Part shown: positions 19,238 to 41,502 of the stretch, one piece after another | Layout: every line of letters starts with the position of its first letter | Numbering within the stretch: the first letter of the stretch is position 1 | Virus record (IMG/VR): IMGVR_UViG_3300020476_000006 | Span: 1 to 41,647 of that record | DNA: 41,647 nucleotides | Source of the DNA: a virus | Direction: 5' to 3' (one strand) | Notes under the pieces: model-generated | What the model saw: the letters and a program-made list of their open reading frames with translations, nothing else | What the model was told of the DNA's origin: nothing | The model's database searches: none | Position numbers and translations under genes: made by a program

Positions 19238-19242
19238 TGCTG

Positions 19243-19269
19243 ATTTCGGCCGGAACCGAAATTTTTTTT
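19243..19269 (+). terminator. Rho-independent terminator before tRNA-Gly
   Basis: ATTTCGG (19243-19249) pairs with CCGAAAT (19256-19262) around CCGGAA, followed by eight consecutive Ts ending two bases before the tRNA. It closes the uvsY-uvsW-Sm unit. Confidence 0.85.
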
Positions 19270-19271
19270 AG

Positions 19272-19346
19272 GCGGGCTTAGCTCAGTAGTAGAGCGACTC
19301 GTTGCCAACGAGTAGGTCGTGAGTGCGAATCTCATAGCCCGCTCCA
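19272..19346 (+). tRNA. tRNA-Gly (anticodon GCC), CCA encoded
   Basis: Full cloverleaf: acceptor GCGGGCT/AGCCCGC, D stem GCTC/GAGC, anticodon stem ACTCG/CGAGT with loop TTGCCAA (anticodon at 19304-19306), T stem GTGAG/CTCAT and a genomic CCA. Two elbow positions are unusual: D-loop AGTAGTA has A at position 18, and T-loop TGCGAAT has G at 55, while G19 and C56 are kept. It sits between a terminator and the gene 55 promoter, so its own transcription signal is unclear; read-through is likely. Confidence 0.93.
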
Positions 19347-19359
19347 ACTAGGGAAAACA

Positions 19360-19388
19360 TTGACAAAAAACACAAAATGTAGTATAAC
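19360..19388 (+). promoter_or_regulatory. Sigma70-type promoter of gene 55, +1 at the start codon
   Basis: Consensus TTGACA (19360-19365), a 17-base spacer and TATAAC (19383-19388). The seventh base after the -10 box is 19395, the A of the gp55 ATG. No Shine-Dalgarno lies before that ATG, so a leaderless mRNA is predicted. Confidence 0.8.
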
Positions 19389-19394
19389 TAAATT

Positions 19395-19985
19395 ATGACC
19401 TTAAAAACAAAAACAAAAAAAGAGCATTATGTAAATAACAAAGAGTTTTTGGAGGCGATGATAAAGTACAGAAAATCTGTACGAAAAGCAAAGAGAGAAA
19501 AGAGAGCTAAACCACCAGTAGGTGATTATCTAGGCTCTTGTTTCCTGAAGATCGCCAACCACCTCTCATATAGACCTAATTTCATAAATTACACTTTCAA
19601 AGATGACATGATTTCAGATGGTATTGAGAACTGTTTACAATACCTAGACAACTTTGATGGTAAAAAATCAAATAATCCATTTGCTTACTTTACTCAAATA
19701 ATCTACTATGCATTTATACGTAGAATACAGAAAGAGAAAAAGCAAGTGACAATTAAACACAAACTTATTAGTAAATCAAATTTAGATGATTTTGCCCTCC
19801 AACCAGGAGAGGATAGAGAATTTAAAAATCAAATGACAGAATATTTACAGAAAAACTTACCAATGGACGCACAAGAAAAGATAGCGGAAGATATAGCCAA
19901 GAGTAAGAAAAAAAGAAGAAAAAGGAAGAGTAAGAATAGTTTAGATTATTTTTTTGAAAATTATGAAGATAGCGCTACTAAATGA
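19395..19985 (+). CDS. 55: Late-transcription sigma factor gp55
   Basis: 196 residues (T4 185). The diagnostic segment is KKSNNPFAYFTQIIYYAFIR followed by RIQKEKKQ, the region-2-like core that recognises the TATAAATA late promoter. The C-terminal SLDYFFENYE resembles the clamp-binding tail by which gp55 contacts gp45. It has its own vegetative promoter with the predicted +1 on the ATG. Downstream, gene 47 starts inside its last codons. It explains the TATAAATA boxes found in the virion module. Confidence 0.93.
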   Translation: MTLKTKTKKEHYVNNKEFLEAMIKYRKSVRKAKREKRAKPPVGDYLGSCFLKIANHLSYRPNFINYTFKDDMISDGIENCLQYLDNFDGKKSNNPFAYFTQIIYYAFIRRIQKEKKQVTIKHKLISKSNLDDFALQPGEDREFKNQMTEYLQKNLPMDAQEKIAEDIAKSKKKRRKRKSKNSLDYFFENYEDSATK

Positions 19986-23624: not shown

Positions 23625-23653
23625 TTGACTTTCTAAAGACTTTCTGATATTAT
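23625..23653 (+). promoter_or_regulatory. Sigma70-type promoter with +1 at the next ATG
   Basis: TTGACT (23625-23630), a 17-base spacer ending in TGA (extended -10), and TATTAT (23648-23653). The predicted +1 at 23660 is the A of the following ATG, and there is no Shine-Dalgarno. The -35 context GCTTGACTTTCTAA recurs almost unchanged before the second tRNA-Gly. Confidence 0.75.
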
Positions 23654-23659
23654 TATATT

Positions 23660-25027
23660 ATGACTGCAACAACTGACTTTGATATACACGCTAAGCAAGA
23701 CTTGGCTGGTGTTGAGAAGAAATGGGAACAATTTCAAGACGAAAACGATATATCTAAAATAGAAGATATAGACGAAAAAATACTTAAAGAAGAAATAGAA
23801 AAAGACCTTGGTTTCGTGTCTAAAATGACCGTACAAGAGTATACACTATTTCAAAAGTGGCAAGAAGTACAAAGAAAATATCCAACAACAGAAACACATG
23901 GTTTATTTGGTACTCAAAAAGTACTAGATGACGCAGTAAATAACAAGATAGGTAATGTTAGAAATAACATATGGATTCCAGAATCACCTGAAGATTACGA
24001 GAAATTAGAACCAGTATTAGAATTTACAGACGACCACGAAATCATTGAAAAAGGTGGTCAACTAGGTGCCAAAACAGAAAACAAAAGAGGCAAGACTACA
24101 AAATTAAATAATAAATCAGAGACTTGGAATACATTAAGAACTTTCTTGTCAACTATGAAAAACAATAGTAATATTGGTAGACAACTATTCTTTAATGTAA
24201 AAGATAATAAATCAGATAAACATTTAGGTGTAATTTGTATATCTGGTGACTTTATGGATTTAACACCAAGAGATAGTGCTATTGGTTGGGATAGACAAAG
24301 TAAGACTTTTGGTGGTATGATTAATCACACAGCAATTGGATCATCCATAGTACCTACACAACCTTTAGGTTATAGTTATACTGGTGGTAAATTGTTAGCT
24401 TATCTATGTTTATCAGATATAGTCCAAAATTTATGGAAAGAGAAGTATGGTGACCACTTGGTTGGTGTCACAACTACATCTTTATATGGTAAATCAAAAA
24501 CCAATACATTAAGTCAATACGATGGTTTAAAGTATTGGAAAAAAATGGGTTTCACTATGGGTTCCGTTTCATACGAACCACAACTTAATACTAAAAATCT
24601 AATAAAACAATGGTTGAAAAAGAATCATACTAGAAAATACTTTGAATGGTATGAGGCAACAAGAGCCAATGGCCAACCATTAAAAAGAGACCACAAGAAC
24701 AGATCATATATGTTTACTTACAGTAGATTAGGTATACCAAAAGAATACATTAAGACAGATCACGCAAGAGGTATTTACTTTGCTAGATTATATAATAATA
24801 CATATGAATTTTTAAGAGGAGAAGTAAAAGAAGATCAACTAGACAAAAGGTTTGATAACTCTACAGAGGCATTAGTTAATGTTTGGAAGAATAAACATGC
24901 TAAAAATAGAGTAAAAAACTTATTGGCGACTAATAGATTCTCTTACGATTCGCATTTCTATGATGATTTAATATATCTAGATTGGGAACAGTGTAAGGAA
25001 AAGTATTTAAATCAAGTCGGAAGATAA
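23660..25027 (+). CDS. Protein of unknown function, paralog A
   Basis: 455 residues. The core block near residues 228-300 (IVPTQPLGYSYTGGKLLAYL, then YGDHLVGVTTTSLYGKSK and SQYDGLKYWKK) is shared with the gene near 40.4 kb, so the two are paralogs. The arrangement (a hydrophobic GGKLLA helix, then KYG, a beta strand, T-S-LYG and a substrate-like loop) loosely recalls DUF4338 of DruA-type proteins and could be a GNAT-related fold, but this is only a hypothesis. The first ~110 residues are charged and the C-terminus is basic. Transcribed from its own promoter, probably as a leaderless mRNA. Confidence 0.75.
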   Translation: MTATTDFDIHAKQDLAGVEKKWEQFQDENDISKIEDIDEKILKEEIEKDLGFVSKMTVQEYTLFQKWQEVQRKYPTTETHGLFGTQKVLDDAVNNKIGNVRNNIWIPESPEDYEKLEPVLEFTDDHEIIEKGGQLGAKTENKRGKTTKLNNKSETWNTLRTFLSTMKNNSNIGRQLFFNVKDNKSDKHLGVICISGDFMDLTPRDSAIGWDRQSKTFGGMINHTAIGSSIVPTQPLGYSYTGGKLLAYLCLSDIVQNLWKEKYGDHLVGVTTTSLYGKSKTNTLSQYDGLKYWKKMGFTMGSVSYEPQLNTKNLIKQWLKKNHTRKYFEWYEATRANGQPLKRDHKNRSYMFTYSRLGIPKEYIKTDHARGIYFARLYNNTYEFLRGEVKEDQLDKRFDNSTEALVNVWKNKHAKNRVKNLLATNRFSYDSHFYDDLIYLDWEQCKEKYLNQVGR

Positions 25028-28842: not shown

Positions 28843-29046
28843 ATGGGTATAAAAATAGACGTTAGAAATAATAATGTAGAACAAGCTTTACGTGTATTAA
28901 AACGTAAATACTTAAAAGATGGTTTCTTAAAAAATTATAAACTAAAAATGTATTATGAAAAGCCGTCTGAAAAAAAGAGACGTAAACGTAAAGAGAACAT
29001 TATTAACGCTAAAAAAGCTAAGAGATTAAGAGAAAAGTTTTTATAG
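28843..29046 (+). CDS. rpsU: Ribosomal protein bS21 homolog
   Basis: 67 residues from the ATG of MGIKIDVRNNNVEQALRVLK, chosen because GAAAGGA precedes it; the longer in-frame start lies inside the terminator hairpin. The basic helix (EKPSEKKRRKRKENIINAKK) is typical of bS21, a small-subunit protein near the anti-Shine-Dalgarno that promotes initiation. Phage-encoded bS21 is known in marine phages, including those of SAR11-type hosts, and can enter host ribosomes. It could favour phage mRNAs. It is followed by the 300-base non-coding stretch. Confidence 0.9.
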   Translation: MGIKIDVRNNNVEQALRVLKRKYLKDGFLKNYKLKMYYEKPSEKKRRKRKENIINAKKAKRLREKFL

Positions 29047-30444: not shown

Positions 30445-30518
30445 GCGGATATCGTATAAAAGTATTATGAGAGATTTCCAATCTTTAGAACTTGGGGCAG
30501 TACCAAGTATCCGCTCCA
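30445..30518 (+). tRNA. tRNA-Gly (anticodon TCC), divergent elbow, CCA encoded
   Basis: Acceptor GCGGATA/TATCCGC, discriminator T, encoded CCA. The D region TCGTATAAAAGTATTAT parallels that of the E. coli TCC-type glycine tRNA. Anticodon stem AGAGA/TCTTT with loop TTTCCAA (anticodon 30477-30479). T stem CTTGG/CCAAG. The T-loop is GGCAGTA instead of TTCNANN, and D-loop position 18 is A, so the usual G18-T55 contact is lost while G19-C56 is kept. It has its own promoter and lies in the leader region of gene 45. It could be a functional unusual tRNA or a decaying one. Confidence 0.7.
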
Positions 30519-35961: not shown

Positions 35962-36741
35962 ATGATGTTAAAAAAAATTATAAAGATAGACGCTGCTAAT
36001 TTCGTGGCGTCAAGGCATTATTCAGCTGTAATGCCTAAACTTACAAAACATTATCTAGGTTGTTATGATAATGATAAGATGGTAGGTGTTATTACGTTTG
36101 GCTGGGGAACAAGACCTAAACATACAATACAAAAATTGTTTCCTAAATTAGATACTAAAGATTATTTTGAAATTGGTAAGATGTGTATGGACGATAAAAT
36201 GCCTAGAAACAGTGAATCACAATTATTAAAACTAGCCATAAAGTGGTTAAAAGAAAATACTGTAATTAAATATCTGTTTACATGGGCAGATGGTTTAGTA
36301 GGTAAACCTGGTTATGTATATCAAGCAGCTAACTTTTTATATGGTGGTTTCTCTATTACAGATACATACGTTTCAAAATCAGGTGAGAAAATACATCCAA
36401 GAACTATACAAGGTAAACTACCAAACAAAGATGGTTTAAAATATGGCCATAGACCTAATCCAAAACAATTAAAAGAATTAGAATTAAGTAGAGTAAAGGG
36501 TAAACAGTTTAGATACATCTATCCTATGACAAAAAAAGATAGAAAAAAATTAAAAGAATCAACTGTTAAATGGTCTACAAAATATCCAAAAGACAGTGAT
36601 TTAGTATGGCGAATAAAGAAACCAGGTGAGAAAGATTATAAAGAAACAAAGAAAATGCCATTTGACTTATCCAAAGATTATGAGTATAATAGAAAGAACG
36701 TTGAGTCGTATCAGAGAGGAACTTTAAGTGAATTTTTATAA
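35962..36741 (+). CDS. Mom-like GNAT acyltransferase (possible DNA-adenine modification)
   Basis: 259 residues. FVASRHYSAVMPKLTKHYLG, VGVITFGWGTRP, FEIGKMCMDDKMPRNSESQL and FTWADGLVGKPGYVYQAANF follow the order of conserved blocks in the Mom family: HYS, a beta strand for the substrate, an N-S helix, and an S/AD-G-x-G-YQAxN-Y block. Mu Mom turns adenine into a carbamoylmethyl form. The last ~80 residues are basic and could bind DNA. The stop overlaps the gene 43 start by 14 bases. Function is inferred from family likeness. Confidence 0.65.
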   Translation: MMLKKIIKIDAANFVASRHYSAVMPKLTKHYLGCYDNDKMVGVITFGWGTRPKHTIQKLFPKLDTKDYFEIGKMCMDDKMPRNSESQLLKLAIKWLKENTVIKYLFTWADGLVGKPGYVYQAANFLYGGFSITDTYVSKSGEKIHPRTIQGKLPNKDGLKYGHRPNPKQLKELELSRVKGKQFRYIYPMTKKDRKKLKESTVKWSTKYPKDSDLVWRIKKPGEKDYKETKKMPFDLSKDYEYNRKNVESYQRGTLSEFL

Positions 36742-39845: not shown

Positions 39846-40386
39846 AAAGAAATACAATATAATATACGCCGATCCTCCTTGGCATTTTCAGAATTGGAAT
39901 AATGAGAATGCACAAACAAATCCTGATAAACATTATCCTACTATGACTATGAAAGACATAGAGAATTTACCAGTTGGAGATATTGCAGATGAGAATTGTG
40001 TATTGTTTATGTGGTGTACCGACCCTTTACTACACAAACAAATACCTATAGTTGAGAAATGGGGATTTGAATACAAGACGGTAGGCTTCACGTGGGTGAA
40101 GACAAATAAAAACAGAATTAAAAACTATTACTTTAAAGGTCCAGGTTATTGGACAAGAGCCAATACAGAGACTTGTATACTTGCAACGAAAGGTAAACCA
40201 AAAAGAGTTGGTGCCAATGTAGATAGATTAGTTGTAGAGGAACGTAGAGAACATAGTAGAAAACCGGATAGAATAAGAAATGATATAGTAACCTTATGTG
40301 GCGATTTACCACGTATAGAATTATTTGCTAGAACTTCTATGCCTGGTTGGGACGTATGGGGAAACCAGGTTGACAAATTTAATTAA
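39835..40386 (+). CDS. MT-A70 family N6-adenine methyltransferase
   Basis: 183 residues. The catalytic DPPW (13-16) is in NIIYADPPWHFQNWN, and the C-terminal IELFARTSMPGWDVWGNQVD is the AdoMet-binding end of the family. KTVGFTWVKTNKN and ANTETCILATKGKP are also typical. Members methylate adenine in DNA or RNA. The protein is a single domain with no recognition domain, so the target may be non-specific. It is next to a GNAT gene and close to a Mom-like gene. The promoter of the next gene lies in its last codons. Confidence 0.9.
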   Translation: MDIKKKYNIIYADPPWHFQNWNNENAQTNPDKHYPTMTMKDIENLPVGDIADENCVLFMWCTDPLLHKQIPIVEKWGFEYKTVGFTWVKTNKNRIKNYYFKGPGYWTRANTETCILATKGKPKRVGANVDRLVVEERREHSRKPDRIRNDIVTLCGDLPRIELFARTSMPGWDVWGNQVDKFN

Positions 40387-40398
40387 TTGTGGTATAGT
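40370..40398 (+). promoter_or_regulatory. Sigma70-type promoter with +1 at an ATG (paralog B)
   Basis: Consensus TTGACA (40370-40375), a 17-base spacer ending TGG (extended -10), and TATAGT (40393-40398). The predicted +1 at 40405 is the A of the second of two in-frame ATGs. No Shine-Dalgarno precedes it. Confidence 0.75.
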
Positions 40399-40404
40399 AT
40401 GAAA

Positions 40405-41502
40405 ATGAAAACTTTAGATCAGGAACAAGCATTATATTGTGCTGGTATATTCAACGATTATTTTGAAAAGTTTGGTCGTATAGATGAATATATGAGAGAT
40501 CAAAAGATGTCACAAATACAACATGTACCTACTGCTTTGCCTGGCATGGGTTTAGAAAGTACCATATATTCCAATTTTGATATGTCACCTAAAGACATGG
40601 ACTTTGAGATATTAGAACCAGATAATGAAACATATGATACGTTATTAAATATGACATCTTCACACACTAATATGTCAAGTGTACCTGGTAAGAATTTAAA
40701 AATCGCAGTGAAAGAAAAGAATAGTGGCCAATGGGTAGGTTTTATAAGATGTGGATCTCCTGTTATTAATATGAAACCAAGAAATGAATTGTTAACTCAC
40801 GTACCAGAATTAACAAGTTTCAATAAAACTTCCATCATGGGCTTTGTCATAGTACCAACACAACCTTTCGGTTATAATTACCTTGGTGGTAAACTGTTGG
40901 CCGCTATATGTTGTTCTCATACAGTTAGAGAAAAGTTAAATGCAAAATATGGTATGAACTTGGCATTATTTGAAACAACAAGTTTATATGGTAATAGTAA
41001 ATCATCTAGTCAATATGATGGTATGAAACCATATTTAAGATATAAAGGTTTAACTGATAGTGATTTTATACCTTTGATACATGGTAAACCTTTCCATGAT
41101 CTTGCAACGTTTGTTGAAAACAATGTAGGCAAACTTGTTAAAGATGACGCCTCTAGTAGAAAGTTAAAACTAACTACAGCAATAATTGGTTTAGTAAAAA
41201 GAAGTTTAAACAAAAGTGATTTAGAAAGATTTAATACAACCATTAGTAATGCTAAAAAATTAACAGAGAGAAAAAGATATTATGTTAGTGATTATGGTAT
41301 CAAGAACTATCTAGATATAGTAAAGGGTAACACTAGCGACATAATTAAAGGCGATAATTGGGACAAATTTCACCTAAATAATATTATAGATTGGTGGAAA
41401 AAGAAAGCTGAGAATCGTTATAATAAACTGAAACAAGAAAATAGATTAAGAACTGAATTAGAAGTATGGACACCAGACGCAAAAATAGACATAATACGAT
41501 AA
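40405..41502 (+). CDS. Protein of unknown function, paralog B
   Basis: 365 residues from the ATG that coincides with the predicted transcript start (the ATG at 40399 is an alternative). Residues ~149-215 (IVPTQPFGYNYLGGKLLAAI, then YGMNLALFETTSLYGNSK and SQYDGMKPYLR) match paralog A at 23.7 kb. The N-terminus differs and is shorter; the C-terminus is basic. As in A, the promoter suggests a leaderless mRNA. A possible remote link to DUF4338 or GNAT-like folds cannot be settled here. Codon use is like its neighbours. Confidence 0.75.
   Translation: MKTLDQEQALYCAGIFNDYFEKFGRIDEYMRDQKMSQIQHVPTALPGMGLESTIYSNFDMSPKDMDFEILEPDNETYDTLLNMTSSHTNMSSVPGKNLKIAVKEKNSGQWVGFIRCGSPVINMKPRNELLTHVPELTSFNKTSIMGFVIVPTQPFGYNYLGGKLLAAICCSHTVREKLNAKYGMNLALFETTSLYGNSKSSSQYDGMKPYLRYKGLTDSDFIPLIHGKPFHDLATFVENNVGKLVKDDASSRKLKLTTAIIGLVKRSLNKSDLERFNTTISNAKKLTERKRYYVSDYGIKNYLDIVKGNTSDIIKGDNWDKFHLNNIIDWWKKKAENRYNKLKQENRLRTELEVWTPDAKIDIIR

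Follow-up and report, generated by a model that had tools for sequence, protein, structure and literature searches.

The window, which is the whole 41,647-nt stretch of DNA analysed here (IMG/VR record IMGVR_UViG_3300020476_000006), is a virus contig representing a fragment of a T4-like phage, and it carries gene 55, encoding the late sigma factor gp55 (Table 1). Residues 5-186 of the protein match phrog_234, placing it in the gp55 late sigma family, and among cultured phages Pelagibacter phage Mosig EXVC030M is the nearest to it by gp55. The gene is preceded by a promoter with 11 of 12 matches to the sigma70 consensus (TTGACA, 16-18 nt, TATAAT), as expected of a sigma70-type early promoter, and the 6 nt separating its -10 element from the ATG are TAAATT. 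An in-frame TAA two codons 5' of this ATG (19389-19391) leaves no possible ATG, GTG or TTG start further upstream, and the next in-frame ATG (19458) lies past HYVNN, a conserved N-terminal motif that starts 10 codons downstream of the first ATG, which makes 19395 the likely start codon. The start codon is thus AUG, as in leaderless mRNAs, and relatives have an ATG at the same distance. The first-pass annotation of this DNA had proposed that the promoter puts the transcription start, 7 nt after the -10, exactly on the A of the ATG and that gp55 has no Shine-Dalgarno sequence (SD); direct reading confirmed the geometry, and we found no SD upstream of the ATG, where the predicted leader is 0 nt. 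A tRNA gene and a terminator-like hairpin lie upstream of the promoter, and the hairpin may restrict read-through from the uvsW operon. The tRNA 3' end upstream of gp55 is present in the window and in some relatives and absent in others.

Table 1. Features of the window discussed in the text (positions are those of the window)
Feature	Position	Strand	Evidence or remark
Opposite-strand strong promoter upstream of gp55	19237-19210	-	conserved in most relatives and in cyanophages
Inverted repeat around TGT	19209-19195	-	directly after the opposite-strand -10
Terminator-like intrinsic hairpin and T run, 5' of the tRNA	19242-19270	+	window scan
tRNA-Gly(GCC), between terminator and gp55 promoter	19272-19346	+	ends 48 nt upstream of gp55
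-35 element TTGACA, gp55 promoter	19360-19365	+	direct sequence reading
-10 element TATAAC, gp55 promoter, spacer 17	19383-19388	+	direct sequence reading; TATATT in most relatives
Transcription start predicted on the first base of gene 55 (A of ATG), 7 nt past the -10	19395	+	promoter geometry; initiator bases of relatives
Gene 55, late sigma factor, 196 aa	19395-19985	+	phrog_234 E 1.8e-61; 77.8% identity to Mosig gp55
Second promoter, TTGACT-17-TATTAT, 6 nt before ATG	23625-23653	+	8 of 10 promoter-bearing relatives share distance 6
DruA-like (DUF4338) gene, predicted leaderless	23660-25027	+	PF14236 E 6.7e-16
bS21 gene (ORF from 28789, first ATG 28843)	28843-29046	+	PF01165 E 9.5e-15; start inferred from translation
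tRNA-Gly-like RNA	30445-30518	+
Third promoter, TTGACA-17-TATAGT, 6 nt before ATG	40370-40398	+	10 close relatives share distance 6
Second DruA-like gene, predicted leaderless	40405-41502	+	PF14236 E 1.4e-6; phrog_19197 E 2.6e-148

Loose sigma70 matches are not enriched across the window (85 observed, 87 expected from shuffles), and since they sit at chance level only position-specific promoter evidence counts. A promoter with at least 10 of 12 matches ends 5-9 nt upstream of just three of the 1417 ATGs on both strands of the window, and all three are gene starts: gp55, 23660 and 40405. Random sequence of the same composition gives a rate of 2.55e-4 per ATG, or about 0.014 expected over about 55 genes, and the promoter-to-ATG geometry of gp55 is not due to chance. 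The majority of the remaining genes in the window have SDs, in agreement with the first-pass annotation, and the remaining starts with almost no SD (19963, 21170, 32171) abut or overlap the preceding gene. The window also holds an SD-led case, in which TTGACT-17-TATAAT at 36662 lies ahead of a GTG at 36728.

The same 6-nt geometry, claimed earlier for 23660 and 40405, is indeed present at both genes, which are paralogues matching the Pfam family DruA (Druantia defence protein DruA, DUF4338). In the second of them an ATG at 40399 abuts the -10 and would escape transcription, and the predicted start is the second ATG. Distant homologues of both genes have the promoter further away or lack it. 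Genome-wide, intergenic strong promoters fall into short-distance and leadered classes in Mosig, Pelagibacter phage HTVC008M and Methylophilales phage Melnitz, and those of Syn9 lie mainly at distances of 22-24 nt.

To place the window among its relatives, we collected 107 distinct gp55 upstream regions of marine T4-like phages, the window counted, from two collection scans plus Mosig, HTVC008M and Melnitz, and recorded d, the number of nucleotides between the -10 and the ATG; in regions with two ATGs the promoter guided the choice of start. A TTGAC-type promoter is recognisable in 100 of these regions and missing from 7, counts that overstate independence because the relatives share ancestry. 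Among the 100 promoter-bearing regions, d is 5 in one, 6 in 47, 7 in 15, 9 in 21, 10 in two and at least 19 in 14; it thus lies between 5 and 10 nt in 86 regions and between 11 and 18 nt in none. Predicted gp55 leaders are either 0 or about 3 nt, or else about 13 nt and longer. Conserved spacing in related phages was the computational check originally proposed for a leaderless start, and the comparison upholds it. Relatives with the promoter at another distance, which had been named as evidence against such a start, do occur, only as the minority whose predicted leaders reach about 13 nt or more, and almost every one of these carries an SD, as a change of initiation mode would predict.

The bases around the predicted start fit this partition. 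In the d=6 class the A of the ATG falls on position 7 after the -10, with a pyrimidine before it in 37 of 47 regions; at d=7, all 15 regions have a pyrimidine at position 7, with the A of the ATG at position 8. At d=9, an A occupies position 7 in 21 of 21 regions, and 20 of these As follow a pyrimidine; the predicted leader is then 3 nt long, mostly AUU, and like the 0-nt leader contains no SD. In one clade (L023, L034, L037, L041, L056, L063) two ATGs occur, the earlier one overlapping the -10 and the later one at distance 7. The mean upstream SD energy at d=6 is -0.9 kcal/mol, compared with -5.6 to -6.8 kcal/mol in 13 of the 14 leadered versions; at the scored start none of these 13 longer-leader genes has an SD weaker than -5.6 kcal/mol, and the exception is Melnitz, in which GGAG lies ahead of the annotated start, itself situated further downstream.

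All 33 distinct d=6 relatives keep the TTGAC unchanged. Within d=6 the two boxes are 96% (-35) and 94% (-10) identical pairwise, compared with 51% for the 17-nt spacer and 64% for the 6-nt stretch preceding the ATG, so that the sequence of this stretch varies while its length is common to the largest class. Since the distance from the ATG to HYVNN ranges from 6 to 28 codons among relatives, length is fixed from the -10 to the ATG and free downstream. The -10-to-ATG spacing therefore looks selected from these alignments, having apparently been held even where the spacer, the length of the N-terminus and the upstream surroundings differ. Only 3 changes are needed to place the leaderless label on a gp55 tree of 79 rows, compared with 25.6 for shuffled labels, a clustering that kinship alone would also produce.

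We consider it probable, at roughly 0.8, that gp55 is expressed from a leaderless mRNA made by host sigma70 RNA polymerase. Host sigma70-type polymerase would transcribe gene 55 from the gene's own near-consensus promoter, most likely early in infection; the 5' end of the RNA would be the A of the start codon; and the host ribosome would have to initiate on the 5'-terminal AUG with no Shine-Dalgarno route. Promoter geometry and initiator bases fit a start at or near the AUG in the window and in 86 of the 100 promoter-bearing regions; where the RNA starts, that it is made early and that initiation depends on the 5' AUG are our inferences. The 7-nt rule for start selection after the -10 is general knowledge from E. 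coli, carried over here to the phage contig. Read-through from upstream could supply additional leadered gp55 transcripts. Work on leaderless mRNAs in general has established that the AUG and the 5' end matter (PMC4611024).

Because Mosig grows on SAR11, SAR11 sigma70 presumably uses promoters of the gp55 type. Pelagiphage genomes are rich in near-consensus TTGACW-N16-18-TATWWT pairs, unlike the SAR11 genomes G005-G008, in which such pairs are very few and no commoner than a reversed-pattern control; SAR11 host promoters may depend on other features. Exact matches to TTGACA-N16-18-TATAWT-N5-7-ATG number zero in four SAR11 genomes, and in 400 kb of one SAR11 genome, with rough start calls, -10-like sites do not peak at 6 nt upstream of ATGs.

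The leaderless reading has to be weighed against other accounts of the same geometry, among which genome compaction is the strongest. It grants that the mRNA is leaderless and denies only a function, the spacing being a by-product of tight packing, and is therefore compatible with our preferred reading. The intergenic space is short, unrelated genes too have predicted leaderless starts, and HTVC008M and Melnitz use leaders instead. Compaction by itself does not account well for the lack of predicted leaders between 3 nt and about 13 nt or for the pairing of SDs with the longer leaders, two features that suggest selection on the translation mode itself, and we regard the absence of any role for leaderlessness as possible though somewhat less probable than a functional one. 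Considerably less likely is that gp55 is translated mainly from a longer RNA, read through from uvsW and the tRNA or released by tRNA processing, with SD-independent initiation on an A+T-rich leader and only a secondary part for the local promoter. Gene 55 does sit after a same-strand uvsW gene run, with the tRNA-Gly 3' end close upstream, and at d=9 a GAGG stands at SD distance, upstream of the predicted start, where only read-through RNA could use it. However, the terminator-like hairpin precedes the tRNA, and a near-consensus promoter is length-locked to the ATG in nearly all relatives while the upstream context, including the tRNA, varies.

It is very unlikely that phage-encoded bS21 is the partner of leaderless gp55, such that ribosomes carrying it would, in the course of infection, change how far they favour leaderless over SD-led mRNAs. 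The window does hold a bS21 gene alongside its predicted leaderless starts, and bS21 contacts the anti-SD region (PMC9723584), but HTVC008M and Melnitz also encode bS21 and their gp55 genes are SD-led, with -10-to-ATG distances of 28 nt and 46 nt; elsewhere, phage bS21 has been linked to late structural genes (PMC9723584). We dropped this candidate since bS21 does not track the leaderless state. Of the original proposal, the leaderless start with its conserved spacing thus survives and the regulated, bS21-linked switch falls away; the sequence comparisons made here gave no sign of a regulated switch in initiation mode. Hardly credible, finally, is autoregulation, in which gp55 itself would read the -10-like box as a T4-type late promoter. 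The likeness of TATAACTA to the T4-like late sequence TATAAAT (PMC9004378) speaks for it. T4 late promoters, as described in work cited in PMC2988020, have no -35 region, whereas here TTGAC is invariant at 17 nt. A T4-type late promoter would combine a TATAAATA-type -10 with no -35, and the -10 region of these phages is mostly TATATTAATATT; the usual sequence runs TATATT, then AATATT, and is not TATAAAT.

The d=9 relatives bear on how leaderless and SD-led versions of gp55 are connected. Most of these phages have GAGG or a similar sequence between the -10 and the predicted start, and this location means that it could act only on read-through RNA. In d=9 relatives such as L003, L027 and L074, GAGGATATTATG directly follows the -10, with its GAGG outside that promoter's transcript; in L047, L083, L429, L432 and L434, GAGGATATTATG is displaced 10-12 nt further from the -10 and the GAGG is now transcribed. 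L047 and L083, the two of these five placed on the tree, adjoin a d=9 row. This arrangement suggests that near-leaderless and SD-led gp55 interconvert across relatives. A more ambitious and rather doubtful extension is that early starts form two classes by design, leaderless (0 or 3 nt) for chosen genes including gp55 and SD-led for others, with promoter choice at d=9 setting the initiation mode of gp55. Promoter choice would decide the mode on one and the same gene because the d=9 GAGG is present only in read-through RNA, a reading drawn from the d=9 relatives and inapplicable to the window's own d=6 clade.

Two further elements were observed in these phages. On the opposite strand upstream of gp55, a strong promoter is followed directly after its -10 by an inverted repeat whose arms co-vary (AACGG/CCGTT, AGCGG/CCGCT, GGACTA/TAGTCC, GGTCTA/TAGACC). 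Arms of 5-6 bp occur at 15 of 49 distinct sites, compared with about 1% of shuffles, and the repeat is a candidate operator, RNA hairpin or antisense RNA start. Just 5' of the gp45 clamp gene in the window, in Mosig (L003:33407-33480) and in G001 lies a tRNA-Gly-like RNA, GCGGATA...TATCCGCTCCA, which is also found in viral contigs (L484-L539). It has an encoded CCA, an anticodon loop of TTTCCAA or TTACCAA, an anticodon stem that varies in sequence and keeps its pairing, and an unusual T-arm (CTTGG-GGCAGTA-CCAAG) in which the usual TTC is missing. ARAGORN missed this RNA, and the Mosig copy scores 38 bits against Rfam tRNA; its exact 32-nt 3' part was found in 56 viral contigs. The RNA has its own TTGACW-17-TAnnnT promoter, and because this ends 7-8 nt before G1, transcription would start at the 5' end or 1-2 nt before it. 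A short conserved ORF before gp45 (MRISYKS...ELGAVPSIRS), considered as a leaderless peptide, was rejected, the DNA being that of the tRNA-like RNA.

Leaderless gp55 appears, judging from upstream regions, to span a large set of T4-like ocean phages akin to SAR11 phages. As gp55 is essential for late transcription in T4, the way its mRNA is first translated could determine the time course of infection by phages that abound in the ocean. If the leaderless reading is true, a lytic T4-like clade that keeps a regulator leaderless would be a natural, repeated test of why leaderless mRNAs persist. It is also a warning for gene callers, since the first ATG, overlapping or abutting the -10 in several of these phages, would be absent from the mRNA. 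Early promoters of pelagimyophages have been predicted by BPROM and bS21 reported as core (PMC7029224). Neither that paper nor the Mosig paper (PMC7892664) describes leaderless transcripts, the word 'leaderless' being absent from one and occurring in a gene-caller citation in the other; in the open-licence papers checked we found only citations or no mention, and no description of leaderless transcripts in pelagiphages, in marine T4-like phages or for gp55. Leaderless phage mRNAs are already known; the widely conserved gp55 case predicted here is new.

Lambda cI, the standard model of leaderless-mRNA work (reviewed in PMC4611024), is like gp55 a phage regulator gene with a 5'-terminal AUG and no SD. 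Unlike this prophage repressor, gp55 is the late sigma factor of lytic T4-like phages, and its geometry, with a start predicted from sequence, is conserved over a large marine clade. Among alphaproteobacteria, Sinorhizobium meliloti has 171 leaderless start sites (PMC3616915); alphaproteobacterial leaderless mRNAs likewise start on the A of an AUG, and of AUG only, whereas gp55 is phage-borne and has near-consensus sigma70 promoters. The closest comparison is with orthologous gp55 genes of cyanophages (Syn9, S-PM2, P-SSM3 and others), HTVC008M, Melnitz and T4, which unlike that of the window are leadered, with -10-to-ATG distances mostly of 20-28 nt or more. Cyanophages, HTVC008M and Melnitz share the gene order of the window and mostly have a strong sigma70 promoter just upstream of gp55; in most cyanophage gp55 genes examined this promoter is equally strong and lies 20-23 nt before the ATG. 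An SD stands ahead of gp55 in P-SSM3, in HTVC008M (28 nt with AAAAAGGA), in Melnitz (a leader with GGAG) and in T4 (a leader with GAGGTGA).
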